Positions 1-18,704 of a stretch of DNA of 24,137 bases are shown here, piece after piece; position 1 is the stretch's first letter, and every line of letters begins with the position of its first letter. The translations under genes and the position numbers were made by a program. A model generated the notes under the pieces. That model worked only from the letters and a program-made list of their open reading frames with translations, was not told the DNA's origin and did no database searches. Source of the stretch: a virus; IMG/VR virus record IMGVR_UViG_3300034063_000021, positions 1 through 24,137 of that record. The stretch is one strand, 5' to 3'.

Positions 1-383
1 CCAAGGTTAGTAATCCTGAACCCACCCATGTTGAGAATACCTTGCATGGTATCCCCAATCTTGCTGAGGGCACTAAAGGCAATCTCTTGAACGCCGTAAA
101 GGGTCTGAGTGAAGTTAGAATTCAGATCCTTGGCCTTGATGGCCGAACCAGCAAAGAAGGTGGCCTTTGTCTGATCCGTATCGGTGTCCCGATAGATTCG
201 AATGGCAGCCCCAGCAGAAGGGGGCGTCGAGAACTGAATGGATGAAGCGGTGGCAAAGATGTAGTTGGTTACGAGTACGTTGTTAACCGTAACCTTGACA
301 TCGGCCTTATCCAGGTAGGAAAAGGACAGGGAATAGATCGTGGTAGACCCATTCCCCGTATAGGTGTTTTGGACGATTGCCAT
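1..383 (-). CDS. gp17: Tail fibre protein, N-terminal part (gp17-like), truncated by window edge
   Basis: An open frame runs from ATG at 383 off the left end of the window, giving 127 codons with no stop. The protein begins MAIVQNTYTGNGSTTIYSLS, then has FSYLDKADVKV and, near residues 112-126, DTMQGILNMGGFRITN. This is the pattern of the T7 gp17 N-terminal domain, which docks the fibre to the tail at the gp11/gp12 junction; the DTM..LNMGG.RITN motif is very common at the start of phage fibre shafts. The receptor-binding C-terminus lies outside the window. It starts 5 bases after the gp16 stop, in the same order as T7 genes 16 and 17. No clear Shine-Dalgarno sequence precedes the ATG. Confidence 0.9.
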   Translation of the reverse strand, partial: MAIVQNTYTGNGSTTIYSLSFSYLDKADVKVTVNNVLVTNYIFATASSIQFSTPPSAGAAIRIYRDTDTDQTKATFFAGSAIKAKDLNSNFTQTLYGVQEIAFSALSKIGDTMQGILNMGGFRITNL

Positions 384-388
384 TGTGT

Positions 389-3300
389 TTAGTTACCGAA
401 ATTGATTAACTGTTCGAGGCGCTTTTGCTCGTCCTGAAGTCGCTGCGATTCAAGCGTTGCTTGGCCTGCATACTGTCCCTGAGATTGAGCAAACCTAAGT
501 TGACCAACCTTTCTCAGTTTTTCTTCAATATCAGGCCTTTCAGCAATAAGTGCCTGCGTAGCTCTTTCATGGGCACCTTGGATAATTTCCTTGGTTTTAC
601 GCACATAAATGGGCTCTTCGTATTGTTCGCCGCGTTCCATAGTTCTGGCTTTAAAATTAGCACGATCTTGTTTAAATTCTTTGCTATTAAACCAGGCTTT
701 TAGTTCAGCTGGCAAACTACCATTACCGTACATAAGTTCTTGAAGGCGTACTCGTCCTTGCGGATCCAAGGATAGTCCATCTTTGGTCCTTTTATAGTCA
801 ACGGTAGGCCAAACATTCATTTCCACAAGCATCTGAGCAACTGGATCTGTGTTGACCTTAGTTGCTTCAAACGGAATTACAGCATTCCGCAGGCCGCCAC
901 CAGGGTTCAGCATCGGTTTTCCAGACAGAATACTAATGCTATATGGAATGTTTTGCTTGCTAAGCCACGGCATCATATCGTAAAGTTTCTTCTGAGTCCA
1001 AGACTCATACTCACGATAGTACTTATCGGAAGCATTGTTCCAAACTTTCCTGAAGCCAGCACCTGGAATAAACGAATTAACGAATCCAAGAATTGCAGCA
1101 CCTGATCTATCAGCGGGTCCTGTTGCCTCACCAAAACGTTCTTTGGCTTTGGTAAATTCAGAAATTGTTTCGTAAGGTGCGGAGAATAGGGAAAGGCCAT
1201 CAAGACCAGCAAGGTAGCTTTTTTCGGTAAAACTCGCTGCAATAGCAAATCCAAGGCGGGTAGCTACTTCTTCCAGTTCTTTAATTTCCCCATTGCGCTC
1301 CATGTGGCCAATGTCAGCAGCCGCAGCTACCCAGTTTGAAAGAGGTTCAAACCAGTTATAGGACACCCACTCGTTGCCAATCTTAATTGACCGAGGTTGA
1401 ATGCCAGCCTGCCTCCACCGCTCACGCTCGTTCTTGTCGATAGGCATGTTGCCCGTGATGTGACCAGACCAAGCATGGGTGTAGCCAAAGGAAACCAAGA
1501 AGGAACCAACGGCTTCTCTACCTTGATACTCTGCAATTTTAAGAGTATCGTTATCTGTGATGGCCTGCTTATAGCCATCCATAAAATTTTGAAGGAGCGG
1601 TGAGGTGGCACCGGGAGTCATTTGCAACTGGTACCTCATGATATTAGCAGGAGTCCGCACAAAGGGAAACGCATACTTACCAACAGGAATACCAAGTGGA
1701 CTAAACCGATCGATGGCATTGCTCAGACTGTTTACAAACACACCGGGGTCATCTTGATAGGTAGTACTCTCTGCAAACTTTTGCAGGGCCTCATCTTTGA
1801 TCTGTCCGGTTTTAAAGTCTACCTGCTTTTCCATTTCCTGGATGGCAGCTTCCTGGAGGCTCTTTAAAGTTCCTTTGCCGTTTTGCCGAGCCTCAAAGGC
1901 CTTCATCATGGCATCTTCATAAATCTTTTGACGCACGGCCACGGTACGCATAAAGTCATCAGAAGACATCATAAGGCGACTGGGCAGATCCGTCCAGTTA
2001 ACCACTGCGTGAACCGCTTTAAGGGTCATTGCTGCTGCTCGCTCAGAGGGGCTTACTGCTGCATCTGCAATAGCATCAACCATTGCCATGCGTTCTGCCT
2101 TGCGGATCACACTAATCTCATTCCAGGTAGCAGGCACACCACTCTTCATGGTAACAGCAGCCACATGAAAGGCATCAGTAATGCCACTAAAGGCACCAAT
2201 AATGCCAGCTCCAGCTGCTCCAATCAACCGGTCATCGCCATTAACGACACCTACGATGCCCACATGAAGGGGTTGAGTAAAGACTCTAATTACAGCACCA
2301 AGGTTCCGAACAATAGTTTTGGGGCCGGACAAGATGCTATTAAAGAATAGTCCAAGAGACTCTTTACCCAGAGCCGTGAGTACAGTCTCACCAAAGTTGA
2401 TGGCTTTGGCAGGGTCACCACCAGCAAGAGACATTGCAAGAGACATCATACGCATCTCTTCAATGGCAGTCGGATCACCAGAGCGAAAACGAGCCTTAAC
2501 ATCTGATGCCCACGTCTTCAACATGCGCGGTGTAAGGACAGTCTTTTCTGCTTCAGTACCAGCTTCCTCAATCATTTGCTTGTAACTAGGATGCTTACCA
2601 AGAAGCAGGCGGCGTCCAGCATCCAAGCTCCAGCCTTCTTTGCGAAGCATCATTAGACCAATCAGCCTATCAAGAAGGCGATCAGGCTGGTTGCCATTTG
2701 CCAGAAGGGCTGCATCATGATCCAAAAAGCTCTTGGAAATCTTTGCAAGCTCTTCTGCCATGCCTTGCATTGTTGCTTGAACAACAATAACAGCCTCATC
2801 TTCGATTAGCTCACCGCTGGACTTGGTGAAGGTTTGACCGCTTTCCCTAAGAAAACGCATTGCCAAATCTTTAGCTTCATCCGCAGTTTGAGCCGTATCC
2901 ATTACCTCTGTAAATTTATCGACCAAAACCTTGAGGTGATCACTCTTGAGTTTTTCCCAGGCGGCTTTACCTTGGTTGCGATAAATCTGATTCAAGCGAT
3001 CTGGATCCAGATTTTTGATGGCTGGCTTGATGATTTGTTTCCAACTATCTTCCAGATTCAAACGCTTTACAGCGGCATCTGTTAGCCAGTTGCGTCCATA
3101 CACAATGGACTCAGGGACACTTACACTTTTATAGGTGCTTTCTTTTTCCCAGGGTTCTTTGTATCCATTATCGATGATGGCCCGATCAATCTCTTGTTGA
3201 TCCAAGAGGTTGCGTTCCAGCTGATCATCAATCTGTTTAGCGGTTTCAAGGTCTTCAGGGTCTACTGCCTGACGTTGTTGCCTTAAAGAGTTTTCTTCTT

Positions 3301-4462
3301 GAAGAAGTTTGTTGAGTTGAGCTTCGCGGGTATCATTCCACAGCTCTCCTTCCTTTTTAAAGTCAACAGCGGCTTTGGCAGATAAAGCGTCGGCCTCATC
3401 GGACATGGTTTTTACTCCAGCCTCCAGTGCCGTTTCGGTATCACTACCCGCATTTTTTGCGTCCCTAAAGGCGAATCTACCTTTAAACAACGCTCCAATC
3501 ACATCAGCAATAGTACCAAGGCCTTCACCTTCAAGGGCACCCTTCAATTTAATTTGATAAAGGTTATCTCGTTCCCCATCAGCAGCCAAAAAGAACAAAG
3601 GCTTAATTGATTCTGGAACAAAGTCCTGAGCAAAGTTAGATAGCGTTTCCGGGTCTTCCGGTGACGCCATGATAAAGTCTGCAATAGCTCCAGGAAGATT
3701 ATCAACCAGAGTTTGAGCCCCTCTACCTTTGGGAACATTTAAGGCTTGTGAAAGAGATTGAGGCTTTCCAGTAAGCTTAGTTACACCAAAGGTAGACGCC
3801 CTGGTAATAGCTCTGCTAGCATTAAAGAACTGAAGAAGTCGTGCTGCCTTTTGACCACCTTGTGTTTTAGGTGTTATACCAAGATCAGTTTGTGCTCGAA
3901 TGTATCGATCATTGAACGGATCCTTGGTAGCATCATAGGTGCCAGTGACTGCGCGGATGGGCTGTTGAAGAGTATCGCCAATTAGGACAGCAGTGTCAGC
4001 AATCTTTTCAATAACGCCAGGTCCGGTGCTTTTGAGGGCAATCCGTCCCATCTCTTTGGCTCCAGCCAGTGACTTATCAAGGGCTGCATCCGTTTTAGTT
4101 CGCTGTTTTTTTGCTTTTAGTTTTTCCTGTGCTCGCCACTGCGGATCCTGTCCAGCAGCGGTAGCGAGCCAATCAGATGCGTTTTCTAATCCCTGAGCAA
4201 CAACATCTGCACCACCCATAACTGGAGCCAAGATTTTCTTGATTCCTTCTCCAGCAGCTGCCGCCGGATTCCATGTCTGTTGATTCCGTTTAGGCTTGGG
4301 TGTTGGTTTAGTGGGTTGTTTTTTTGATGTAGGTTTAGCTGAAGAAGGCTTAGTGGGTTTCTTTTTTGCTAACTCAGCTTGAAGAGCCTTTTTAGTATAT
4401 TCAGGGTCCCGATATGCACCATAAGTACTACCGGGTTCAAATCCTTGCAACGGATCGGCCAT
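389..4462 (-). CDS. gp16: Internal virion protein D / ejection protein (gp16-like)
   Basis: A 1357-residue protein, close to T7 gp16 (about 1318), in the gp16 position between gp15 and the tail fibre. In T7, gp16 is an inner-core protein ejected into the host envelope to form the DNA conduit. The N-terminus (about residues 25-62) is rich in Lys, Pro and Thr. No transglycosylase-type catalytic motif is visible there, although T7 gp16 carries its muralytic domain at that end. Near residues 694-770 is a long hydrophobic, Gly/Ala-rich stretch containing FFNSILSGPKTIVRNLG. That resembles a recurring motif of giant phage ejection or polyvalent proteins and is a candidate membrane-interacting region. 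The C-terminus is charged and coiled-coil-like. The ATG at 4462 follows GAGGGAG. Identity rests on size and synteny more than on motifs. Confidence 0.85.
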   Translation of the reverse strand: MADPLQGFEPGSTYGAYRDPEYTKKALQAELAKKKPTKPSSAKPTSKKQPTKPTPKPKRNQQTWNPAAAAGEGIKKILAPVMGGADVVAQGLENASDWLATAAGQDPQWRAQEKLKAKKQRTKTDAALDKSLAGAKEMGRIALKSTGPGVIEKIADTAVLIGDTLQQPIRAVTGTYDATKDPFNDRYIRAQTDLGITPKTQGGQKAARLLQFFNASRAITRASTFGVTKLTGKPQSLSQALNVPKGRGAQTLVDNLPGAIADFIMASPEDPETLSNFAQDFVPESIKPLFFLAADGERDNLYQIKLKGALEGEGLGTIADVIGALFKGRFAFRDAKNAGSDTETALEAGVKTMSDEADALSAKAAVDFKKEGELWNDTREAQLNKLLQEENSLRQQRQAVDPEDLETAKQIDDQLERNLLDQQEIDRAIIDNGYKEPWEKESTYKSVSVPESIVYGRNWLTDAAVKRLNLEDSWKQIIKPAIKNLDPDRLNQIYRNQGKAAWEKLKSDHLKVLVDKFTEVMDTAQTADEAKDLAMRFLRESGQTFTKSSGELIEDEAVIVVQATMQGMAEELAKISKSFLDHDAALLANGNQPDRLLDRLIGLMMLRKEGWSLDAGRRLLLGKHPSYKQMIEEAGTEAEKTVLTPRMLKTWASDVKARFRSGDPTAIEEMRMMSLAMSLAGGDPAKAINFGETVLTALGKESLGLFFNSILSGPKTIVRNLGAVIRVFTQPLHVGIVGVVNGDDRLIGAAGAGIIGAFSGITDAFHVAAVTMKSGVPATWNEISVIRKAERMAMVDAIADAAVSPSERAAAMTLKAVHAVVNWTDLPSRLMMSSDDFMRTVAVRQKIYEDAMMKAFEARQNGKGTLKSLQEAAIQEMEKQVDFKTGQIKDEALQKFAESTTYQDDPGVFVNSLSNAIDRFSPLGIPVGKYAFPFVRTPANIMRYQLQMTPGATSPLLQNFMDGYKQAITDNDTLKIAEYQGREAVGSFLVSFGYTHAWSGHITGNMPIDKNERERWRQAGIQPRSIKIGNEWVSYNWFEPLSNWVAAAADIGHMERNGEIKELEEVATRLGFAIAASFTEKSYLAGLDGLSLFSAPYETISEFTKAKERFGEATGPADRSGAAILGFVNSFIPGAGFRKVWNNASDKYYREYESWTQKKLYDMMPWLSKQNIPYSISILSGKPMLNPGGGLRNAVIPFEATKVNTDPVAQMLVEMNVWPTVDYKRTKDGLSLDPQGRVRLQELMYGNGSLPAELKAWFNSKEFKQDRANFKARTMERGEQYEEPIYVRKTKEIIQGAHERATQALIAERPDIEEKLRKVGQLRFAQSQGQYAGQATLESQRLQDEQKRLEQLINFGN

Positions 4463-4505
4463 TGATTGTTTTCTCCCTCAGGAGTAAGTATGGAAAATAG
4501 ATTTT

Positions 4506-4546
4506 GTGGAGACCTCATCCTCGCAAGTCAGAGGTCTTTAATCCAC
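4506..4546 (-). other. Hairpin between gp15 and gp16
   Basis: In the 90-base gap between gp15 and gp16, AGACCTC and GAGGTCT form a 7-bp perfect stem around a 14-base loop. An outer GTGG/CCAC pairing extends it, with a 5-base bulge on one side. On the minus-strand transcript the hairpin lies just after the gp15 stop. It is followed by CAAAATCTATTTTCC, which is not a clean U-tract. It may be an mRNA 3'-end stabiliser, a processing site or a weak terminator; the sequence does not decide between these. Confidence 0.5.
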
Positions 4547-4552
4547 GATTAG

Positions 4553-7306
4553 TTAGCGAAACGGATCAACTCCGCTATCAACCAACTGCTTTAGCTCACG
4601 TCGAGCATTAAGAAGAGCTTGCCGTAATTTAAGGCTAGAAATAGTAGCCTTGTTTCCAGCTTTATCTTCATCATATTTGCCCCTACCATTAACGCCAGGA
4701 GCTGCGGCCCATTCATAAGCAAAAGCTTCTTGGGCACGATCAAGGTTATTGTGCTTACCCAGCAGGTAATCACGCAGATCAGGGCGCACATTAGAATTAA
4801 GGATATAACTCCAGAACATCTTAAGTTGATTTTCTGGTGTCATCTTGGCTGTTGGTGGCAGGTTGGCCGCAATCCTTGCTTTTGTCAAGTTGCTATTTTT
4901 TCCATCAGGAATAGCCCATTGAGCAAATCCAACTGCAAATAATTTACCTTGTTTTTGCAACTGTTCTACCTCTCCAATGTTCATGGAGGTAAGATTAATT
5001 TGCGTACCAGAACCAGTAGTTCCATAATTAACAGAATTGAATCCACCCTCTCCACTGGAAGTTAGTTCTGCTAAACCACCGAAATCTCCCGCACCAAACG
5101 TGGATCCTTTCCCAACAGGGATACCTCCTCTGGAAGAGAGGAGTTCCAAGGCACTTCGAATTTGTGCATTGGTAGATCTGGGGTTGCGAATGACGTTGGC
5201 AGCGTTAAGATTGATAGCAGCATTTCGCTGATAAGAGGCCTGCTTATCTGGATTTGGTACATAAGGTTTTCCAAGTAATTTCCCCTGGTAAGCCATCCAG
5301 GTATCTTCATTCAAAAAGCCAGCCATTTTAGCGGCAGCTGTAATCTCTACTGGCAGTGAACCACCATTAGAAATTATGGTTTGATAAAGATCATAGTCCT
5401 CTGAATTTGTCCGCAACGCAGTAGCTTGCATTGTTGGGAAAGGACCGGCTTTTTTTCTCAAAGAACGCAACTGCTCTGGAGAAGCCACGGGACTTTGAAT
5501 TTCTAGATTTTGCCCAGAAGGTAGATTCTTTTTAAGAATGTTGGGCGTTTTACCTTTAGAATCAATGTAAAACTCTTCAGATGGAAGAGAGATAATTCTT
5601 TCAGTTTCCGCCTGCCACTGCCTGGCCACTTCACTGTCGTTTGGATACTTGCCAGTTCTTTCAAACTGCTCTTTCCATTTGGATGAAAGTGTATCAAATG
5701 CGACACGCATAGCCCCATTAAGGGCTCCATCTACTCTAGATTTTAATCCAGCATCAGAATTATACAGCGATCCGCCGCGATCCAGCCGTGTCAGCAAACG
5801 ACCCCTAACGTTCGGAAGAACAATGCCTGTGCCAACACCTTTACCAAGATCAACAACAGACGGGATGTCAGGAAGAAGGGCTTTAATTTCTTCTGCATCC
5901 GAGGCTTCTAAATCTTCAGCTCCAACCAAGCGATCAATTTCATCCTCGGTCCACAGAAACCCGCCACCAGGTTTTTTGTTTCCAGCTCTAATCTGCGAAA
6001 GAATTTGAGTCTTCAATCGAATAGAGCCGTCTTCTTTGGTAAGCTTATTCTGCAGCTCCATGGCATAGGGGCTAGAGCTTTGGGTCAAGGAGGCTCTAAA
6101 GGCTGCCCTCTGTTTTGCCAGTTCTTCAGGAGAGGCGGTATTCCTTATCTGCTGGAACTGCTGCCATTGGTAATCAAGTCTAGACTTTTCGTCAGCATCA
6201 ACGGCAGCGGCGTTTGCCTTTCGACCTTCTGCAATTTGTGCTCTAAATTGTCTAAATTTGGCAGCATTTTTATTGCCGTAAGTTATATTTGTTCCTGGAA
6301 TTTTAACGCCTTCCAAATTGCTGATAAGGCGTTGCATGGAGGTTATATCTCCACTGCGTTGATAAATATCCAGTTGCTGTTCGATAGCCTTCAACTGTGC
6401 TTCATTGACAACAACAGGGTCTCTGAAATCACGCATACCATTGGCGAACGAAGTACGCTGCCAATCATCAGCCCCCTCAGGTGTTAAAGCCTGCGGAAGC
6501 GTATTTGCCATGCTTAGTTCCGTATTATATTGTCTGCTCTTTAGTTCCCGCTCGTCGGTCTCCTTCATCCAAATACGCATTGCTTCACGTTCAGCCATCG
6601 CCAGGTTGAAGCCGCCGTGCTCTTGAATGATCTGCGGGTTGATCCTATCCAGACCATACTGCAGAACCCATTGCTTTGTCAGTGCCCTGGTAACGTCAGC
6701 TACCTCGTACCCCTTGGCTTGGCTAGGAACAATGATCCTACCATCATCAAGCTGTACGGGTGTGCTGCTGTTCTTGTTTGATAGCAAGTAGGTTTCAAGG
6801 TTTGCTGGAGCAAGTTGAGCTTGAGCTATTGCTGCACCATAGGCTTCCCAACCCTTGAGGGCAGGACTTGTAGATAGGATGGTACTGGCGGTACCAGGAG
6901 AATTGCCTGAGTTGGCAACCTCTTGAGCAACAGCCACATCCTTACTAGCATTCGCCTCCAGGACAGCTGCTTTAGCCTGGAATTGTTGTTGGGCTTTAGG
7001 TTTAAGGCCAACTTCTCCACGGATATACTTGGCGTAGCCCTCTGCAATCTGAGCCTTCTTCTTACTTTCAGCTCTTTCAAGCATAAACTTGTTGAGAGTC
7101 TCAGAAAAGGCTGCCAATTCCTCCAGGTCTTGTTTATTGTTTTGGAGGACAGTCTCCGCAACAGCATTGGACTGTTCGGTGCGCCGCTGTGTTTCCCGTA
7201 GGAACTGGGAACTAGGATCAAATGCTTGGACTGGATTAAACCCCGCAACTCGCTGTGGCCCAGTTAGCTGAATTTGTCCAGGAGTTGATTCATAAATTCT
7301 AGCCAT
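4553..7306 (-). CDS. gp15: Internal core protein (gp15-like) with C-terminal lysozyme-like domain
   Basis: A 917-residue protein, longer than T7 gp15 (about 747), in the gp15 position 5 bases after gp14. In T7, gp15 is part of the inner core and the ejected periplasmic channel. The first roughly 700 residues are helical and Gln/Ala/Glu-rich, with no catalytic signature. The C-terminus from about residue 735 looks like a lysozyme/transglycosylase fold: SSGEGGFNSVNYG with Glu753 as candidate catalytic acid, then LTSMNIGEVEQLQKQGKLFA, VGFAQW, MTPENQLKMFW and AFAYEWAAAPG. This order (Glu near the start, an INxGE-type helix, AxGxxQ, then P.NQ) matches phage peptidoglycan hydrolase domains as I know them. 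It would cut the host cell wall during DNA entry. The ATG at 7306 is the first start. Family identity is firm by synteny; the enzymatic domain is a motif-based inference. Confidence 0.85.
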   Translation of the reverse strand: MARIYESTPGQIQLTGPQRVAGFNPVQAFDPSSQFLRETQRRTEQSNAVAETVLQNNKQDLEELAAFSETLNKFMLERAESKKKAQIAEGYAKYIRGEVGLKPKAQQQFQAKAAVLEANASKDVAVAQEVANSGNSPGTASTILSTSPALKGWEAYGAAIAQAQLAPANLETYLLSNKNSSTPVQLDDGRIIVPSQAKGYEVADVTRALTKQWVLQYGLDRINPQIIQEHGGFNLAMAEREAMRIWMKETDERELKSRQYNTELSMANTLPQALTPEGADDWQRTSFANGMRDFRDPVVVNEAQLKAIEQQLDIYQRSGDITSMQRLISNLEGVKIPGTNITYGNKNAAKFRQFRAQIAEGRKANAAAVDADEKSRLDYQWQQFQQIRNTASPEELAKQRAAFRASLTQSSSPYAMELQNKLTKEDGSIRLKTQILSQIRAGNKKPGGGFLWTEDEIDRLVGAEDLEASDAEEIKALLPDIPSVVDLGKGVGTGIVLPNVRGRLLTRLDRGGSLYNSDAGLKSRVDGALNGAMRVAFDTLSSKWKEQFERTGKYPNDSEVARQWQAETERIISLPSEEFYIDSKGKTPNILKKNLPSGQNLEIQSPVASPEQLRSLRKKAGPFPTMQATALRTNSEDYDLYQTIISNGGSLPVEITAAAKMAGFLNEDTWMAYQGKLLGKPYVPNPDKQASYQRNAAINLNAANVIRNPRSTNAQIRSALELLSSRGGIPVGKGSTFGAGDFGGLAELTSSGEGGFNSVNYGTTGSGTQINLTSMNIGEVEQLQKQGKLFAVGFAQWAIPDGKNSNLTKARIAANLPPTAKMTPENQLKMFWSYILNSNVRPDLRDYLLGKHNNLDRAQEAFAYEWAAAPGVNGRGKYDEDKAGNKATISSLKLRQALLNARRELKQLVDSGVDPFR

Positions 7307-7311
7307 TAGCC

Positions 7312-7992
7312 TTATTTAGGAGGTTTAGTATCGGGTTTATTAGATTTATCAGGAAGAGGATTATAAGCCGGTTTTGGCTTCAATTCATTCCAAGTGCTTA
7401 TCCCGCCAATAGCAGCAGATCCAAGTCCCGCTACCAATCCAATACCGCTAGGACCAGGCATAGCAATCGGAGAGGAAGGCTTGAGGGTGCGTTGAGAAGC
7501 AGCCATATTGTTTGCAGTCTCCTGCTGATTATAGATGCTTTCAGCACCAATCCAGTAATCCTGATTGGCATACGCAAGGTTCTGACCCAGCACTGCCATA
7601 TCACGACCGGCTGTCCTTTCAGCATCCGCCAACAGTAGCCCAATTGACTGTCCAGAGCGTCCGGTTGCCATCACAAGCCCCTGCTGCTGAAGACTTTGAA
7701 TGGTGCGTTCCTGGGCCTTCTGGGCTGCTTGGGCATACTCAGCTTGAAGCTTGCTCTGTTCCGAAGTATAGGCCCGATTGGCGGCCTCAGCATTGAGACG
7801 CATTTGCGCTTCATAGCTTCTTTCAGATTGGTTGTAGGCTGTTAGCTGAGCCTGATATTGTTGTCGGGCAACAGCATTCGCATAATCTGCTTGCTGCTGC
7901 TGTTGCTGATAGGAAGCGATTGAGCCAATAGCTCCACTAGCAAAGGAGCCAATCGCGGTTACAATAGCTAGTGTTCCAGGACCTAGGCACAT
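7312..7992 (-). CDS. gp14: Internal virion protein B (gp14-like)
   Basis: A 226-residue protein (T7 gp14 is 196). It begins MCLGPGTLAIVTAIGS, with a hydrophobic N-terminal segment (about residues 6-27). A Gln-rich coiled-coil-like region follows, with a run of six Gln at about 29-34 and many Ala/Gln/Glu from 30 to 110. A small Gly-rich hydrophobic stretch (about 183-195) and a Pro/Lys tail close it. The Met-Cys start and helical Gln/Ala-rich body are like T7 gp14, an ejected protein thought to form the outer-membrane part of the DNA channel. The ATG at 7992 overlaps the gp13-like stop by 10 bases. The function is inferred from synteny and composition. Confidence 0.82.
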   Translation of the reverse strand: MCLGPGTLAIVTAIGSFASGAIGSIASYQQQQQQADYANAVARQQYQAQLTAYNQSERSYEAQMRLNAEAANRAYTSEQSKLQAEYAQAAQKAQERTIQSLQQQGLVMATGRSGQSIGLLLADAERTAGRDMAVLGQNLAYANQDYWIGAESIYNQQETANNMAASQRTLKPSSPIAMPGPSGIGLVAGLGSAAIGGISTWNELKPKPAYNPLPDKSNKPDTKPPK

Positions 7993-8453
7993 GGCATTAA
8001 CTTAGCAAATTCTACATAGGTTAGATTGTTGGGACCAACACTTCGATATGCCAACCGCTTGAATCCAAGCATGTGAAGCAGTTTCATGTGCATCTCATTT
8101 CGTGGATCAGCAATGTTGTGAAGCATCAGGTAGGAGGTTTGTTGATCGACCCATTTTCTTGCCTCCTTGAAAAAGAGTTTTGGGTACTGGCGGACATAGG
8201 GTGTGGTTAACATCCAGATGGCTCCGCTATGGGCATCTGTTCTGGATACCCCAGCCATCCCACATATCATGCCAGCTGGATTCCAAAAACAAATTGGATC
8301 CTCTTCGACATCAAGAGCATGAAGGAGGGCCATTCGCATATCAGTAATGCCAAGGCCCTCTAGTTCTCTGCGATCTGCTGGCTGAAGATGGGCGGCCACC
8401 CACTCAACGTCGAATGGCCGCGCTTTATCAATGAGTTTGGTGAGAACGCCCAT
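7983..8453 (-). CDS. gp13: gp13-like internal virion / assembly protein with GNAT-like pattern
   Basis: A 156-residue protein (T7 gp13 is 138) located between gp12 and gp14, as in T7. The segment ICGMAGVSR, then IWMLTTPYV, KLFFKEARKWVDQQ, LHNIADPRNEMHMKLLHMLG and FKRLAYRSVG follows the strand-helix order of small phage GNAT-fold proteins. It parallels T7 gp13 (CWFVTSDQVWR, WVGNTSHIRFLKTIGAVF). T7 gp13 is needed for proper virion assembly; no acetyltransferase activity is established for it. The ATG at 8453 begins 2 bases after the gp12 stop. An alternative reading is a generic acetyltransferase-like protein, but context favours gp13. Confidence 0.72.
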   Translation of the reverse strand: MGVLTKLIDKARPFDVEWVAAHLQPADRRELEGLGITDMRMALLHALDVEEDPICFWNPAGMICGMAGVSRTDAHSGAIWMLTTPYVRQYPKLFFKEARKWVDQQTSYLMLHNIADPRNEMHMKLLHMLGFKRLAYRSVGPNNLTYVEFAKLMPCA

Positions 8454-8455
8454 TA

Positions 8456-11146
8456 CTACTTAAGGGAAATTCCTTTGTTGTTGTAGGTGCCTTCCCAGGT
8501 GATCGACGTGAGGGCCGTGGGGAAGGGGCTATCCGCCACCAACTCTACCTCTACCTGATCGCCTTTGGCAAGAATAGGAACGGTATTCCGTGCATTCCTT
8601 AGAACTGGAATGGCATTGGCCAGGTAAAGGTTGCCCACAATTTGGGGAAGATTGATGGAGAATTCTGCTCTACCATCTGCCCGCACCTTAACGATGTACG
8701 GACCAGAATCATAGCTATCGATCGATAGTCGGTTGATTGTGGGAATGTTGAGTGTATCCTTCCGTCCCTCACTCACCAAGAAGTAAAAGGCAGGCAGAAT
8801 AGCGGAGGCTTCATACTTGTACCCAAGAGCGAATTTCTTGGTTGTTTGATTTTCCTCAACCGTCACAAAGTACCGTTGACCAACAGGCTGTGTCAGATCC
8901 GTCTCCAGAGGAAGCTCAAGAACAACACCAGGCTCCAGCGGATCCAAGGATACCAGAACAGGCTGAAGGGTGGAATCATTGAATCCATCCTTAAAGCAAA
9001 TATGGGTCTCGTCTGTTCCAGCAAAGTAAACCTTGGTGGGATTGTAATCGAAAAGATCAAGGCGCAGATCGATGTACTTGTCCTCAAAGAGCACCGCACC
9101 ACCAGGAGTATCCGTCAATAGATTGAGCTTGCTGAGTACATGATTACTACCCTGCTGTGTGACCACAAACATTGTATCATGTTCAAACTCCACCATTGCG
9201 ATGGTGCCTGCCATTTCCCACTTGAACCAGGACGCCATCAGTCGCTTGGTTCCATCCTCAAAGAAGCGGAAGAAATACAGGGACTTGGGTTCACGATTGC
9301 TTAGTGCGGTGAACGTATTGGCAGAACTGGTAACCTTCAGATCACGAATGTCCGAGGGGATAAAGGATGGAATGCCTCGTGTAAGTTCGGTAACCACAGG
9401 CTTCTCACCTGGGCCACCAATCACCATTTCAAACGCACCGGTGGATGTATCGTTCTGTTCTACGAAAACAATACTAGAACCAGTGTCGATAGGCGAAATG
9501 CGGGGCGACTGGCTGAAGCTACTAACCAAGTTAATCTCAGCCGTAGCAGCAGAGAATGCCTCTGTTGAGGTCTCCAGGATGTATTGAGCATTGTCGGCAA
9601 ACAGGGCCAATCCCCGAGGAATTTGAACCGCATGACGCAATTCAATTGGCTTCAACGAACCGCAACTAAGATCAATCGGATCGCTATCAACGATGGTGAT
9701 GACCGTGCTTGCAAAGAAGTTGAAGTAGTCCCCAGCCCGTGAGCAGATGACATTTTCATTGGACATCAAGATCAGTCGATTCTTGAAAAATGAAATGCCA
9801 TGAATGTTTGTCCCAACAAATGTGGGCATGAGGTTGGTTTCTGCGTCTCCAACAACTCGTGGCTGCCAGAACTGGGATGCAATGCCATCTACGGATTGAG
9901 TTACCGAAGTGACGGTATCTACCCGGAATGTATCGCCCTCAGCACTGGTAACAACATCCAGGGCAGTGTATGCTCTACCTGACCGGCTGATCTTAATGCC
10001 CGTGATGGCACCGGTAGTGGATGTCGAAGTTACTTTAAGACGGAGGTTGATGCCCGTCCCACCATAAACTGGAAAGCTCTGTCCAACAGCATACCTGCCG
10101 TTCCCAGAAGTGAGGATGCTAACAGCAGAAGGAACACCCGTTACTGTTGCAGTTGGTGGGGTGGCAAGTGCTGATGCCTCGTCAAGTTTACGGAAGGTGA
10201 ATGTGCCGTTTGCCTCACGAATGATTACATGGGGCATGGTGGCTTCATCAAAAGACTTCACCACCCCAGGACCAATCGTTTCCTCCCAGACACCTGTGCC
10301 GCTAGAGCTTCCATCGCTGGTGATGAACTTCACATAGTAATCATCGCCAGTTGAATTCTCTGAGGCGAGAACCTTGATAATTGATCCATTAAGGAATTGC
10401 CTTGGCAACTCACCTACAACACTGACAGTTCCTTTGTATGCCTGAATGGCGTTGCCTGCTGTGCCACCCTTTGCTTCCAGAGAGAAGTCAGCGTTGTTGG
10501 CCCTTCGAACATGGATGCTGTTGCCCACTCCGGTTGCCACAAACGCTGGGTTAGCATTGATGGCAGAGACCAGAGCGTTGATGATCGTTGAGGCACTGAG
10601 AGAAGAACCAGAAGTTGTGGGGGTACTGTAGGTAAACGATGTACCAGCAATCTTAACTTCGTAGCTCGTGTCGTATGCCACACTGTTGAGCACCACAAAA
10701 CCATAGGGGGTAACTGCTGCGCTCACATCTGCCGCATCCTCCAACACGACAACCGTTCTGTTCAACACAAAGTTGTAGTCGTTGATCTGAAGGATGGCTA
10801 AATCTGAAGAATCAGTATGTGTTGCGTATGTGGTGGCCGATCCTGCTGGAGTATTTACTGTCTGTTGAATGCCGCTGTTTGCGTCCCAGATTCTCAGAAC
10901 ACCTTGCTTGGTAAATTCAACGAGGTACTTCTCTTCGTCGTCTCGGAAGATAGGAAACCAAGTGCCATCAGAGACAGCATTATCAAGCTTACGAATGCCC
11001 CGAAGACCCGGACGCTTAGCCAGACCAAAGGTAGGATCTGGATAGTAGTTTGTGCATTTTCGCAGCTGATTTGCTGCCTTGAAAGCATCAGGCTGCTGCG
11101 ATACCCCACCAATCAAGTTTGGTATTTTCTGAGAAACGGCAGCCAT
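8456..11146 (-). CDS. gp12: Tail tubular protein B / tail nozzle (gp12-like)
   Basis: An 896-residue protein (T7 gp12 is 794). It opens with MAAVSQKIPNLIGGVSQQPD, the highly conserved start of gp12-type nozzle proteins, followed by CTNYYPDPTFGLAKRPGLRG. Internal matches to the family include FFKNRLILMSNENVICSRAG near residue 460 and the beta-rich segments around it. The protein forms the tail nozzle below the gp11 adaptor and, with it, the fibre attachment site. About residues 150-235 hold a Ser/Thr/Ala-rich insert-like stretch that may explain the extra length. The start ATG overlaps the gp11 stop in TAATG, so the two genes are probably translationally coupled. Confidence 0.95.
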   Translation of the reverse strand: MAAVSQKIPNLIGGVSQQPDAFKAANQLRKCTNYYPDPTFGLAKRPGLRGIRKLDNAVSDGTWFPIFRDDEEKYLVEFTKQGVLRIWDANSGIQQTVNTPAGSATTYATHTDSSDLAILQINDYNFVLNRTVVVLEDAADVSAAVTPYGFVVLNSVAYDTSYEVKIAGTSFTYSTPTTSGSSLSASTIINALVSAINANPAFVATGVGNSIHVRRANNADFSLEAKGGTAGNAIQAYKGTVSVVGELPRQFLNGSIIKVLASENSTGDDYYVKFITSDGSSSGTGVWEETIGPGVVKSFDEATMPHVIIREANGTFTFRKLDEASALATPPTATVTGVPSAVSILTSGNGRYAVGQSFPVYGGTGINLRLKVTSTSTTGAITGIKISRSGRAYTALDVVTSAEGDTFRVDTVTSVTQSVDGIASQFWQPRVVGDAETNLMPTFVGTNIHGISFFKNRLILMSNENVICSRAGDYFNFFASTVITIVDSDPIDLSCGSLKPIELRHAVQIPRGLALFADNAQYILETSTEAFSAATAEINLVSSFSQSPRISPIDTGSSIVFVEQNDTSTGAFEMVIGGPGEKPVVTELTRGIPSFIPSDIRDLKVTSSANTFTALSNREPKSLYFFRFFEDGTKRLMASWFKWEMAGTIAMVEFEHDTMFVVTQQGSNHVLSKLNLLTDTPGGAVLFEDKYIDLRLDLFDYNPTKVYFAGTDETHICFKDGFNDSTLQPVLVSLDPLEPGVVLELPLETDLTQPVGQRYFVTVEENQTTKKFALGYKYEASAILPAFYFLVSEGRKDTLNIPTINRLSIDSYDSGPYIVKVRADGRAEFSINLPQIVGNLYLANAIPVLRNARNTVPILAKGDQVEVELVADSPFPTALTSITWEGTYNNKGISLK

Positions 11147-16176: not shown

Positions 16177-16900
16177 ACTGAGGGAGGTCAGTGTTAGATG
16201 CCTCAAAGAATGCTGGCATCCTGGCACGTTTGGTATCGGATAGGCCCGGTGCCTTACCCCTTTCATACAAGGAATCAGACTGGTTCAACCAGAAGTCCTT
16301 GTCCAGATACTTATTCTCAGACGAGGACAGCCCATCCACTACCCATCCAACAGTCGCTCTACGAAGTCGATTGAGGCCTGATGTGGACTTGAGGCCCAGC
16401 TCGGAGCAGACCATCGAGTGGACCGCGACGTGGGTTTGTTCATCTCGGCTGATGTCTGCTGCTGTGGTGCGGATGCCGATGTCTCCCGTGAATCGGAAGA
16501 AGGGAAGGATGACGAAGAAGACACTACGTTCAAGGATGGCGGCTTTCAAGAGGGGATGTTCTGGTGCGTCGAGCCATGCCTTGAGGATGTGCTTGGCTTC
16601 AGCTTCGAACTTATCGTTGGAGCCGTGAGCCGCAACAACATAGTTAAGAGCTTGGTCGTGACGCTCTTCATCCAACTGATTAGATAGCAGAGCTTGACGT
16701 ACACCAGGAGTATTAGGTAGCTCCTTTTCCAGCCCCTGCTGTAGGAATTCTCTAACAGGCAGTTCGAGGTGGCGTAGACCAAGGGCACGGTAGATCGCGT
16801 CTTCGGCACCATCAACTAGCTTGCCTTTCTGAACAGCAACTGGAGTCCACTTGCGTTTGCGGCTGATGACTTGATCATAGGGCGATAGTGTGGGGTTCAT
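16169..16900 (-). CDS. nrdB: Ribonucleotide reductase class I beta subunit (NrdB-like), radical Tyr replaced
   Basis: A 243-residue ferritin-like protein, shorter than E. coli NrdB (about 375). Start chosen at ATG 16900, which overlaps the NrdA stop as ATGA; a TTG at 16918 in the same frame is less likely. Numbering from the ATG, metal ligands are readable: E78xxH81 in DEERHD, E124 in ILERSVFFVILPFFRF (like E. coli E204), and E154xxH157 in SRDEQTHVAVH (like E238/H241); the first carboxylate is probably E46 or E51. The residue four after H81, Tyr122 in E. coli, is Leu85. A conserved Tyr (242) sits next to the C-terminus (DLPQYG), as needed for radical transfer to NrdA. It pairs with NrdA to make deoxynucleotides. 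The cofactor subclass is uncertain. Confidence 0.87.
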   Translation of the reverse strand: MNPTLSPYDQVISRKRKWTPVAVQKGKLVDGAEDAIYRALGLRHLELPVREFLQQGLEKELPNTPGVRQALLSNQLDEERHDQALNYVVAAHGSNDKFEAEAKHILKAWLDAPEHPLLKAAILERSVFFVILPFFRFTGDIGIRTTAADISRDEQTHVAVHSMVCSELGLKSTSGLNRLRRATVGWVVDGLSSSENKYLDKDFWLNQSDSLYERGKAPGLSDTKRARMPAFFEASNTDLPQYG

Positions 16901-18336
16901 TCTCCGCAAGGAATACAAGGTTCATTGTCGGGCTGAACTTTCGGGCAGCCACAATCCGGATCAATGTCTGTTTCAAAGTTAAAGAGATCTTTGAAATCAT
17001 CATTTAGTGCAGCCAGAGCATCGTCCTTGGCCTGCGTATCAGGCATCACCTGAAGAGCATAGTAGAGAGACGTTTGGGGTGAGTCCAGCCACTCCTTGAG
17101 GAAGGCTGTGTCGTAGGTGACGACATCGCTCCAACTGTTGAACGAGTACCCATGGAACAGCAGTGTATGTTGGAAGAGTCGCACTATTCCATCAACTACC
17201 CGCGTGTAGTTATCCCAACCAACTTCCGCAGCAATTTCGCAGTCGTCAGGGTAATCGTATGACTGAACCCCAAACGTTCCCGAATCACGATCGACGTGAC
17301 GGCTAATAGGAGGAGCCAACTCTGGAGTGGCAGTGAAGCCCCTAAGATCGATGTTGCTGTAGCTGCAAGAAGCGGTAGGAGCAATAGCGAACGCCCTGTC
17401 CATCTTGGCGTGGCGGGCGATCTGTGCTGCTGCTTCAACGGCCTTGGCAAGTTCCCCAACGAGTACATCGGCGGGGGAATTTTGTGATGCGTGTGCGAAG
17501 TAATCATCTAAAGCCTGACCAAATTGTTTGTAGGTGACTTTGTGATAGGCAAGGAAGTTAGCCAGGCCCAAAACACCAAGTCCTACTTGTCGGTCAGTTT
17601 CAGGAGGCAGATATTCTCCAGTATTTCCAACTCCTGTCTTAGCATGAAGTGCTACCAGGGACGACATACCCTCGGTAAATGCTGGCACCAGCTCATCAAT
17701 GTCGCAGGCACCAAGATTGATATGTTGTAGGAGGCAAGTACCACGGCTGGGGAGGTAGACCTCAAGACATACATTTCCGTAGATGCGCTTACCGTAGGCA
17801 TCACGACGAATCTTATTTAGCCAGATATCACCCTTCTTGATACCATCAAGGGTAGCTGCAATCAGTTCTGGAGAAGCATCCTCCAAAAAGTGACTATCAA
17901 CATTAAGGCAACGCTTTACCCAAGCCAGATCCGAACGACTGGCACGGATGAAATCAATAGCATCGGGATGAGTATAGTCAAGATGGCATACCACAGCCCC
18001 ATTCTTGTAGAATCCTCCCCTTCGAAGTGTTTCATTAAGAGCCGAGTAGATGCGAGCAAAAGAAACAGGACCAGAGGCGGTAAGGCCGTGACCATTGTCG
18101 TGGCCCAACGGACGGAGTTTAGAAAGGTGGACCGCAACACCAGCACCATTACGGAGAGCGTGGGAAACAAAACGCCAGGAGGCTTCAATACCCTCGGGAC
18201 CCTCCATGCTGTCTTCTACTACAAAGACGGTGCAACTGACGGGAAGGCGCGATTCCGGATTGTCGATCCACGATTGAACGCGACCGGTCCGGGCGATAGT
18301 TTTAGGGAGGTCTCCCAGGTCAGCAAAGTTGGTCAT
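16897..18336 (-). CDS. nrdA: Ribonucleotide reductase class I alpha subunit (NrdA-like), compact
   Basis: A 479-residue catalytic subunit that reduces ribonucleotides to deoxyribonucleotides. Visible residues: Cys35 in LPVSC (like E. coli C225), N188-x-C190-x-E192 in GNVCLEVYLP (N437/C439/E441), Cys201 in TCLLQHINLGAC (C462), tandem Y425-Y426 in SLYYAL (Y730/Y731), and a C-terminal CIPC (474-477) for thioredoxin/glutaredoxin recharge, with an extra CGC at 462-464. The tandem Tyr and the adjacent NrdB mark it as class I, although compact cyanophage enzymes of this type have been labelled class II. There is no N-terminal ATP cone, so overall activity is probably not switched off by dATP. It starts at ATG 18336, overlapping the MazG-like stop as ATGA. 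Confidence 0.93.
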   Translation of the reverse strand: MTNFADLGDLPKTIARTGRVQSWIDNPESRLPVSCTVFVVEDSMEGPEGIEASWRFVSHALRNGAGVAVHLSKLRPLGHDNGHGLTASGPVSFARIYSALNETLRRGGFYKNGAVVCHLDYTHPDAIDFIRASRSDLAWVKRCLNVDSHFLEDASPELIAATLDGIKKGDIWLNKIRRDAYGKRIYGNVCLEVYLPSRGTCLLQHINLGACDIDELVPAFTEGMSSLVALHAKTGVGNTGEYLPPETDRQVGLGVLGLANFLAYHKVTYKQFGQALDDYFAHASQNSPADVLVGELAKAVEAAAQIARHAKMDRAFAIAPTASCSYSNIDLRGFTATPELAPPISRHVDRDSGTFGVQSYDYPDDCEIAAEVGWDNYTRVVDGIVRLFQHTLLFHGYSFNSWSDVVTYDTAFLKEWLDSPQTSLYYALQVMPDTQAKDDALAALNDDFKDLFNFETDIDPDCGCPKVQPDNEPCIPCGE

Positions 18337-18704
18337 ACTAGATCGTCAAGGATAGGTGGATAGTAGTTAGGTCCCTTCAGTACTTTACCATCTGCTCGAC
18401 GTAGGGGTTTGCCATCGACCAGCTTGGACATATTGCTTTCAAACACTCGACGCATGGCCACGTCCAGATTCCACCCACGAGCAGCAGCATACTGGTAACA
18501 GACAAACACGAGATCGGCCAGCTCCTTCAATTGATCAACCTTTGGGACACTCAGCTCATCTTCAAACGCATCACGCCACTCCTTGTACTCCTCGTTGATT
18601 AGAGTTGCTTGAAGTTCGTGAACATTCTCATCAGAGGTGTTGAGAGGTTGATCCATTACCTCCCGAAAAGTAATGGCCTGTTGAAGCAACGATGGAGTGA
18701 TCAT
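18333..18704 (-). CDS. mazG: MazG-like nucleotide pyrophosphohydrolase
   Basis: A 123-residue all-alpha NTP pyrophosphatase-like protein. The metal-binding pattern is readable: INEEYKEWRDAF near residues 36-47 (ExxE region), then KELADLVFVCYQYAAARGWN near 61-80 (ExxD region). The C-terminal PNYYPPILDDLV is often seen at the end of phage MazG/PRA-PH-like proteins. Such enzymes hydrolyse (d)NTPs or related nucleotides to monophosphates; cyanophage MazG proteins are thought to adjust nucleotide pools or host physiology. The ATG at 18704 overlaps the DUF3310 stop as ATGA, and the stop overlaps the NrdA start as ATGA, so it sits inside a coupled nucleotide cassette. The exact substrate is unknown. 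Confidence 0.85.
   Translation of the reverse strand: MITPSLLQQAITFREVMDQPLNTSDENVHELQATLINEEYKEWRDAFEDELSVPKVDQLKELADLVFVCYQYAAARGWNLDVAMRRVFESNMSKLVDGKPLRRADGKVLKGPNYYPPILDDLV

Follow-up and report, generated by a model that had tools for sequence, protein, structure and literature searches.

A lambda-lysozyme-like domain predicted at the C-terminus of a gp15-position ejection protein from a probable cyanophage, with an apparently exchanged block behind its conserved glutamate

Introduction

A review of phage ejection proteins reports that the gp15-like proteins of K1E and K1-5 hold the lysozyme activity that T7 has on gp16, and describes a swapping of domains among ejection proteins (PMC8954989). 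The virion lysozymes described to date include SP6 gp36 and phiKMV gp36, the latter with a C-terminal lysozyme (PMC5380687, citing Lavigne 2004 and Briers 2006 for phiKMV). In the solved ejectosome of phi-M1, a lysozyme-like domain spans Gly718 to Ser903 of the gp15 counterpart, and such domains form the lining of a groove next to the packaged DNA (PMC11440229). A virion lysozyme at the gp15 position is therefore already known and is not tied to cyanobacteria, as these precedents come from phages other than cyanophages.

Here we analyze a 24,137-base virus record from IMG/VR (IMGVR_UViG_3300034063_000021), hereafter called the window, whose gp15-position gene resembles these systems in arrangement. 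The phiKMV gp36 protein (Autographiviridae) likewise has a C-terminal wall hydrolase on the protein encoded between the gp14- and gp16-position genes, but its enzyme is GH24-like and has no detectable homology to the domain in the window. In SP6 (gp36) and K1E/K1-5 (gp35), too, it is the gp15-like tunnel protein and not gp16 that bears the lysozyme, and the PF00959 (GH24) domain at residues 770–905 of SP6 gp36 also lacks homology to the domain studied here. The phi-M1 OEP, the counterpart of gp15, likewise has a lysozyme-like domain, seen structurally, in its C-terminal part; the gp16 counterpart of that phage bears an endolysin-like domain, whereas none was detected by sequence in gp16 of the window. 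By synteny and position, the gene of the window belongs with those of SP6 and phiKMV as a gp15-position protein with a C-terminal wall hydrolase, the activity of its domain being predicted.

Results and discussion

The ejection-protein operon of the window

The virus probably infects cyanobacteria. Searches with Pfam and PHROGs revealed a T7-like structural module on the minus strand, in the order head–tail connector, capsid assembly, capsid, tube, nozzle, gp13-position protein, gp14, gp15-position protein, gp16-position protein, and the start of a tail fibre. The identity of the gp15-position protein with T7 gp15 has its basis in synteny rather than in sequence, and no sequence match was found between the two proteins. 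The features considered below, all on the minus strand, are as follows.

389..4462, minus strand: gp16-position internal virion protein, 1357 aa (phrog_6651 'internal virion protein', E 3.5e-108)
4553..7306, minus strand: gp15-position internal virion (ejection) protein, 917 aa (open reading frame and synteny)
4592..5089, minus strand: lambda-lysozyme-like domain, gp15 residues 740–905 (profile, tblastn, hhalign, AlphaFold, VIA-align)
4742..5044, minus strand: apparently exchanged allele block, gp15 residues ~755–855 (identity to L003 versus L001/L002)
5048..5050, minus strand: codon of Glu753, predicted catalytic acid (invariant; aligned with lambda R Glu19)
5090..7306, minus strand: gp15 body and linker, residues 1–739 (hhalign to S-SRP02, S-TIP28, and Syn5)
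7312..7992, minus strand: gp14-like internal virion protein (PF24072 T7_gp14, E 5.6e-16)
7983..8453, minus strand: gp13-position protein (phrog_308 'internal virion protein', E 3.6e-30)
8456..11146, minus strand: nozzle protein, gp12 (PF25675, E 1.2e-182)

Elsewhere the window contains a partial ribonucleotide reductase (16897–18336) and a PRA-PH (MazG-like) pyrophosphohydrolase gene (18333–18704), both of which are also found in other cyanopodoviruses.

A lysozyme-like domain at the C-terminus of gp15

An earlier note, made by reading the sequence alone, had placed a lysozyme-like domain at the C-terminus of gp15, and this placement is borne out by profiles, tblastn relatives, hhalign comparisons, and an AlphaFold model. 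The motifs quoted in its support are located where they were claimed to be (SSGEGGF at residue 750, GEVEQL at 778, VGFAQW at 792, PENQLKM at 824, and EWAAAPG at 865), and the glutamate of SSGE is residue 753. The proposed span of 4553–5070 corresponds to gp15 residues ~746–917; its location stands, and its limits are better drawn at residues 740–905, equivalent to 4592–5089. Neither Pfam nor NCBIfam reports a domain in the gp15 protein of the window itself, so that the motif reading was genuinely needed, and a plain phmmer search of the protein against the PDB yielded nothing useful.

By using tblastn with the last 192 residues of gp15 against annotated phages, we recovered 30 records, mainly cyanophage proteins named lysozyme, endolysin, or 'lambda lysozyme', together with Burkholderia tape-measure proteins. 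We also fetched 24 relatives of the domain from IMG/VR, and the resulting alignment (A1) comprises 18 sequences, in which G752, E753, and G754 are invariant and Glu753 is E19. A profile made from these 18 relatives matches free-standing cyanophage proteins named 'lysozyme-like' or 'lysozyme', such as S-CRES3 gp26 and S-CREM2 gp170, as well as tape-measure domains, with scores of 94–235 bits; it does not match SP6 gp36, phiKMV gp36, T7 gp16, or gp15 and gp16 of P-SSP7. In the PDB, the domain profile has a weak match to residues 277–354 of 11mn_A, a '66 kDa protein' of unstated origin that may contain a further lysozyme domain (E 0.0021).

The best tblastn relative is p045 of the Synechococcus phage S-SRP02 (47% identity, E 1e-28), which combines a homologous gp15 body with the same C-terminal domain. 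This protein is annotated as an N-acetylmuramoyl-L-alanine amidase and has been read as a lysis gene, but we found no amidase family in it. The product of the S-SRP02 locus at 6607–9513 is an ejection protein in the gp15 position whose C-terminus is lambda-lysozyme-like, and the published reading of this isolated relative as an amidase lysis gene is corrected accordingly.

Assignment to the lambda lysozyme family

When the widened family was compared by hhalign with individual lysozymes, probabilities of 90.4% (E 1.4e-6) for lambda R, across the region from GxxQ to EWA, and 90.7% (E 1.2e-6) for the lysozyme domain of the A-1(L) hub were obtained. Lambda R entered this comparison as a single sequence, and an IMG/VR search with lambda R gave near-identical copies only. 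The corresponding values for the T7 SLT, SP6, phiKMV, and PF18013-type (Syn5-type) domains were 0.1–0.4% (SP6, 0.4%; phiKMV, 0.1%). In a joint alignment, Glu753 shares a column with Glu19 of lambda R, the catalytic residue of that enzyme at the end of the first helix, and with the corresponding glutamate in the hub of A-1(L). All three domains have GxxQ, Q, and EWA-type motifs in common.

An AlphaFold model of gp15 residues 726–917, built from 19 closely related sequences, has a pTM of 0.73 and a mean pLDDT of 74.5. Foldseek alone returned no PDB match with E < 0.1, its best being 8kea_A (E 0.13). Alignment of the Foldseek candidates with VIA-align 2 gave Z scores of 7.2 to 8kea_A and 6.0 to lambda lysozyme (3d3d_A, over 133 residues), both under 8. 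These values are middling, yet the list of modelled neighbours is uniform, since the matches listed at Z ≥ 2 belong only to the lysozyme superfamily (8kea, 3d3d, the lytic transglycosylases MltF, MltC, and MltE, and a GH23 chitinase). Matches of the model in BFVD include phage lysin domains. The structure prediction proposed in the earlier note is thus supportive of a lysozyme fold, with weak Foldseek E-values.

The closest fold and profile relatives are thus the lambda endolysin R (PDB 3D3D) and the gp15 hub domain of A-1(L) (8KEA), and they differ from the domain in the window by context. Lambda R is a free endolysin whereas the domain described here is fused to gp15, and in A-1(L), a myophage, the domain stands at the N-terminal side of the baseplate hub whereas ours is C-terminal.

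Identification as GH24, SLT, or amidase was considered and dropped. The window protein has no PF00959 match and hhalign values to GH24 enzymes are under 1%; the comparison with the SLT region of T7 gave 0.1–0.4%; and no amidase Pfam family is found in the window protein or in S-SRP02 p045. For the PF18013 family (Phage_lysozyme2, phage tail lysozyme) the matches are mixed: it matches 6 of the 18 relatives weakly (best E 0.0022) but not the window member, and hhalign of the domain against the PF18013-like domains of Syn5 and its relatives gave 0.16%. We consider it likely that gp15 residues ~740–905 form a lambda-lysozyme-like (GH104-type) domain that is predicted to cleave peptidoglycan and to serve entry as part of an ejection protein.

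A predicted role in genome entry

By analogy with T7, SP6, phiKMV, and phi-M1, on which our model of gp15 assembly and of peptidoglycan cutting around the tunnel is built, gp15 would be packaged in the head, leave it by way of the tail, and form part of the DNA tunnel in the periplasm. Its terminal domain would open glycan strands locally so that the tunnel could pass the sacculus, with Glu753 as the general acid. The enzyme would probably be a lytic transglycosylase like lambda R, and its products would then be expected to contain 1,6-anhydro-muramic acid. The residence of the domain in an ejection-protein operon counts for action at entry, and a likely entry enzyme is thereby placed for a little-studied cyanopodovirus lineage.

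The domain might instead act mainly as a late lysis enzyme, or in both roles. In the eight relative records, the domain is matched by the copy on gp15 only and neither an Amidase_2 nor a PF00959 endolysin was found. The S-SRP02 genome authors, moreover, put forward the homologous protein of that phage, ORF45, as its lysis gene. However, those eight records are fragments, and the search in them covered two endolysin families. The domain forms one polypeptide with an ejection protein of ~740 aa in a T7-like gene order, and where SP6, phiKMV, and phi-M1 have this arrangement, it is virion-associated. We therefore view lysis, as the main role or as one of two, as unlikely.

Another reading is that the lysozyme fold has been kept in a catalytically dead form that binds peptidoglycan or shapes the ejectosome. 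The A-1(L) paper names hub residues 56–265 a lysozyme domain, yet it reports activity for the endoglucanase and peptidase domains only, and the groove-lining location of the phi-M1 domains beside packaged DNA would also suit a structural part. Against this, Glu753 is invariant across the 18 relatives and is kept as far as the Burkholderia tape-measure proteins, and a domain that only binds need not retain it. We judge loss of catalysis to be quite improbable and favor an active entry enzyme.

The gp15 C-terminus as a slot for different hydrolases

The gp15 body (residues 1–734) was compared by hhalign with other cyanopodovirus proteins, giving 100% for S-SRP02 p045, 96.9% for S-TIP28, 95.9% for Syn5 gp44, and 90.8% for P60, with weaker values for S-TIP37 (81%) and S-SRP01 (79%). 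The ends of these proteins differ. A lambda-like C-terminal domain is present in the window, S-SRP02, and S-TIP37, whereas P60 (E 4e-5) and, weakly, Syn5 have a PF18013-like end, which those of S-TIP28 and S-CBP42 resemble by eye. The end of S-SRP01 matches a glucosaminidase (GH73, E 7.8e-22) followed by an M23 peptidase (E 3.3e-9), and those of L063 and L069 combine a lambda-like domain with M23. No hydrolase was found at the gp15 end of P-SSP7. In S-RIP1, a weak lambda-like match falls within a protein for which no relationship between its body and gp15 could be established. As judged from these matches, the gp15 C-terminus is a plug-in slot in which at least three unrelated predicted wall hydrolases have been joined to homologous bodies.

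The S-SRP01 protein (1491–4649) carries the annotation 'hypothetical'. The loci L063–L069 constitute a more distant gp15 group in which a diverged copy of the domain precedes an M23-like region (residues ~905–985), and by eye the usual second His motif of this region seems to be missing.

When bacterial genomes were scanned for a host from which the domain might derive, a single locus was recovered, contig JAIXOF010000238.1 of a Cyanobium metagenome-assembled genome. It contains an S-SRP02-like operon with the gp15-position gene and the next gene, and therefore represents phage DNA within a host bin. An origin of the domain in a host is thus unsupported, the sole bacterial locus being itself phage.

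A block apparently exchanged behind Glu753

Contig L003 and the window share an aligned stretch of 11,257 bases with 97.7% identity, which reaches ~99% over most of this length. Within gp15 the two are likewise ~99% identical at the nucleotide level, except at codons ~755–855, where identity falls to 63%. In this block the window is instead 97% identical to L001 and L002, whose remaining gp15 is only ~60% identical to that of the window. Informative sites follow L001 at 96 of 99 positions within the block and L003 at 892 of 902 outside it, and in a permutation test none of 20,000 trials gave a site pattern as extreme. The left switch lies within 20 shared bases that encode the motif around Glu753, and the right switch is a short patchwork that changes repeatedly over a few bases.

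Related patterns are present in other pairs. L015 and L022 are 96–100% identical in the remaining gp15 and 78% identical in the block; L002 and L013 show 82% versus 64% in the block; and L012 and L013 are 79–82% identical to L022 in the block and 42–44% in the N-terminal body. The lobe behind Glu753 appears, from these comparisons, to have been exchanged between lineages by recombination, and recurrently so. Exchange of an ejection-protein gene in cyanopodoviruses agrees with the phylogenetic incongruence reported for their internal core protein (PMC4646655). The block is the sharpest mosaic place of gp15 but not the sole one: between less close pairs, residues 31–70, 275–313, and 496–531 are also low in identity, and we therefore rejected the notion of a single variable patch.

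We also considered whether the mosaic might be an assembly chimera, since metagenomic assemblies can join at conserved stretches and the two exact junction sequences of the window are absent from all other IMG/VR contigs, which leaves this particular recombinant unreplicated. Such an artifact has a low probability in our estimation, because identity at the left junction extends over only 20 bases, the right junction alternates several times within a few bases, the block is 97% rather than 100% like its relatives, and the same pattern is seen in L015/L022, L002/L013, and L012 or L013 versus L022. Recombination thus remains our preferred explanation for the block.

Along the 11.2 kb shared with L003, divergence is sharpest in this block and in the tail fibre, the latter being the only other strong divergence and located at the end of the shared stretch. 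At window positions 1–118, near-identity stops inside the tail fibre gene and falls to ~55%. Our hypothesis is that swapping this lobe adapts the enzyme to host walls. More specifically, the lobe could be a swappable cassette under host-driven selection, exchanged like tail-fibre tips and acting as a second, periplasmic determinant of host range, although we offer this only as a tentative possibility. If the block does matter for the host wall, then peptidoglycan recognition at entry would join receptor binding in deciding which cyanobacteria can be infected.

gp16 and the proposed relocation of the muralytic domain

The gp16 protein of the window is homologous to Syn5 gp45 and P-SSP7 gp16. 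Its N-terminus is a Lys/Pro-rich stretch, as the earlier note had described, and the accompanying statement that it has no recognisable muralytic domain agrees with our profile-level results: muralytic Pfam families, including SLT, have no match among 14 aligned gp16 sequences, whereas the positive control T7 gp16 returns SLT (PF01464) with E 1.7e-31. By hhalign, the gp16 of the window and residues 1–160 of T7 gp16, the SLT region, gave 0.2%. This absence is to be read at the level of sequence, because the AlphaFold model of gp16 failed (pLDDT 34.4, pTM 0.23); the endolysin-like domain inside the phi-M1 gp16 counterpart was found from structure (PMC11440229).

The further suggestions that the wall-cutting activity moved between core proteins, and did so to suit the cyanobacterial envelope, do not fit the comparisons. 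By hhalign, the lambda-R-like domain of the window has no homology to the T7 gp16 SLT or SP6 GH24 domains, and phages that infect Salmonella, E. coli, Pseudomonas, and Pectobacterium show the same arrangement. Separate acquisitions fit different families at the gp15 end better than one move does, and cyanopodovirus gp15 bodies with differing hydrolases count against a single relocation from gp16. It is accordingly very improbable that the T7 gp16 function was relocated to gp15 in response to the envelope of cyanobacteria: gp16 has no detectable muralytic domain here or in the other cyanopodoviruses tested, most of which have one on gp15, but phages of proteobacteria use the gp15 position too, homology between the domain in the window and the SLT domain of T7 is not detectable, and P-SSP7 has no muralytic domain detected in either gp15 or gp16.

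The N-terminal part of gp16 (residues ~1–180) is lineage-specific and hypervariable in the window and in L021 and L022; between the latter two, a 150-base stretch near the start of gp16 is 51% identical amid surroundings of ~90%.
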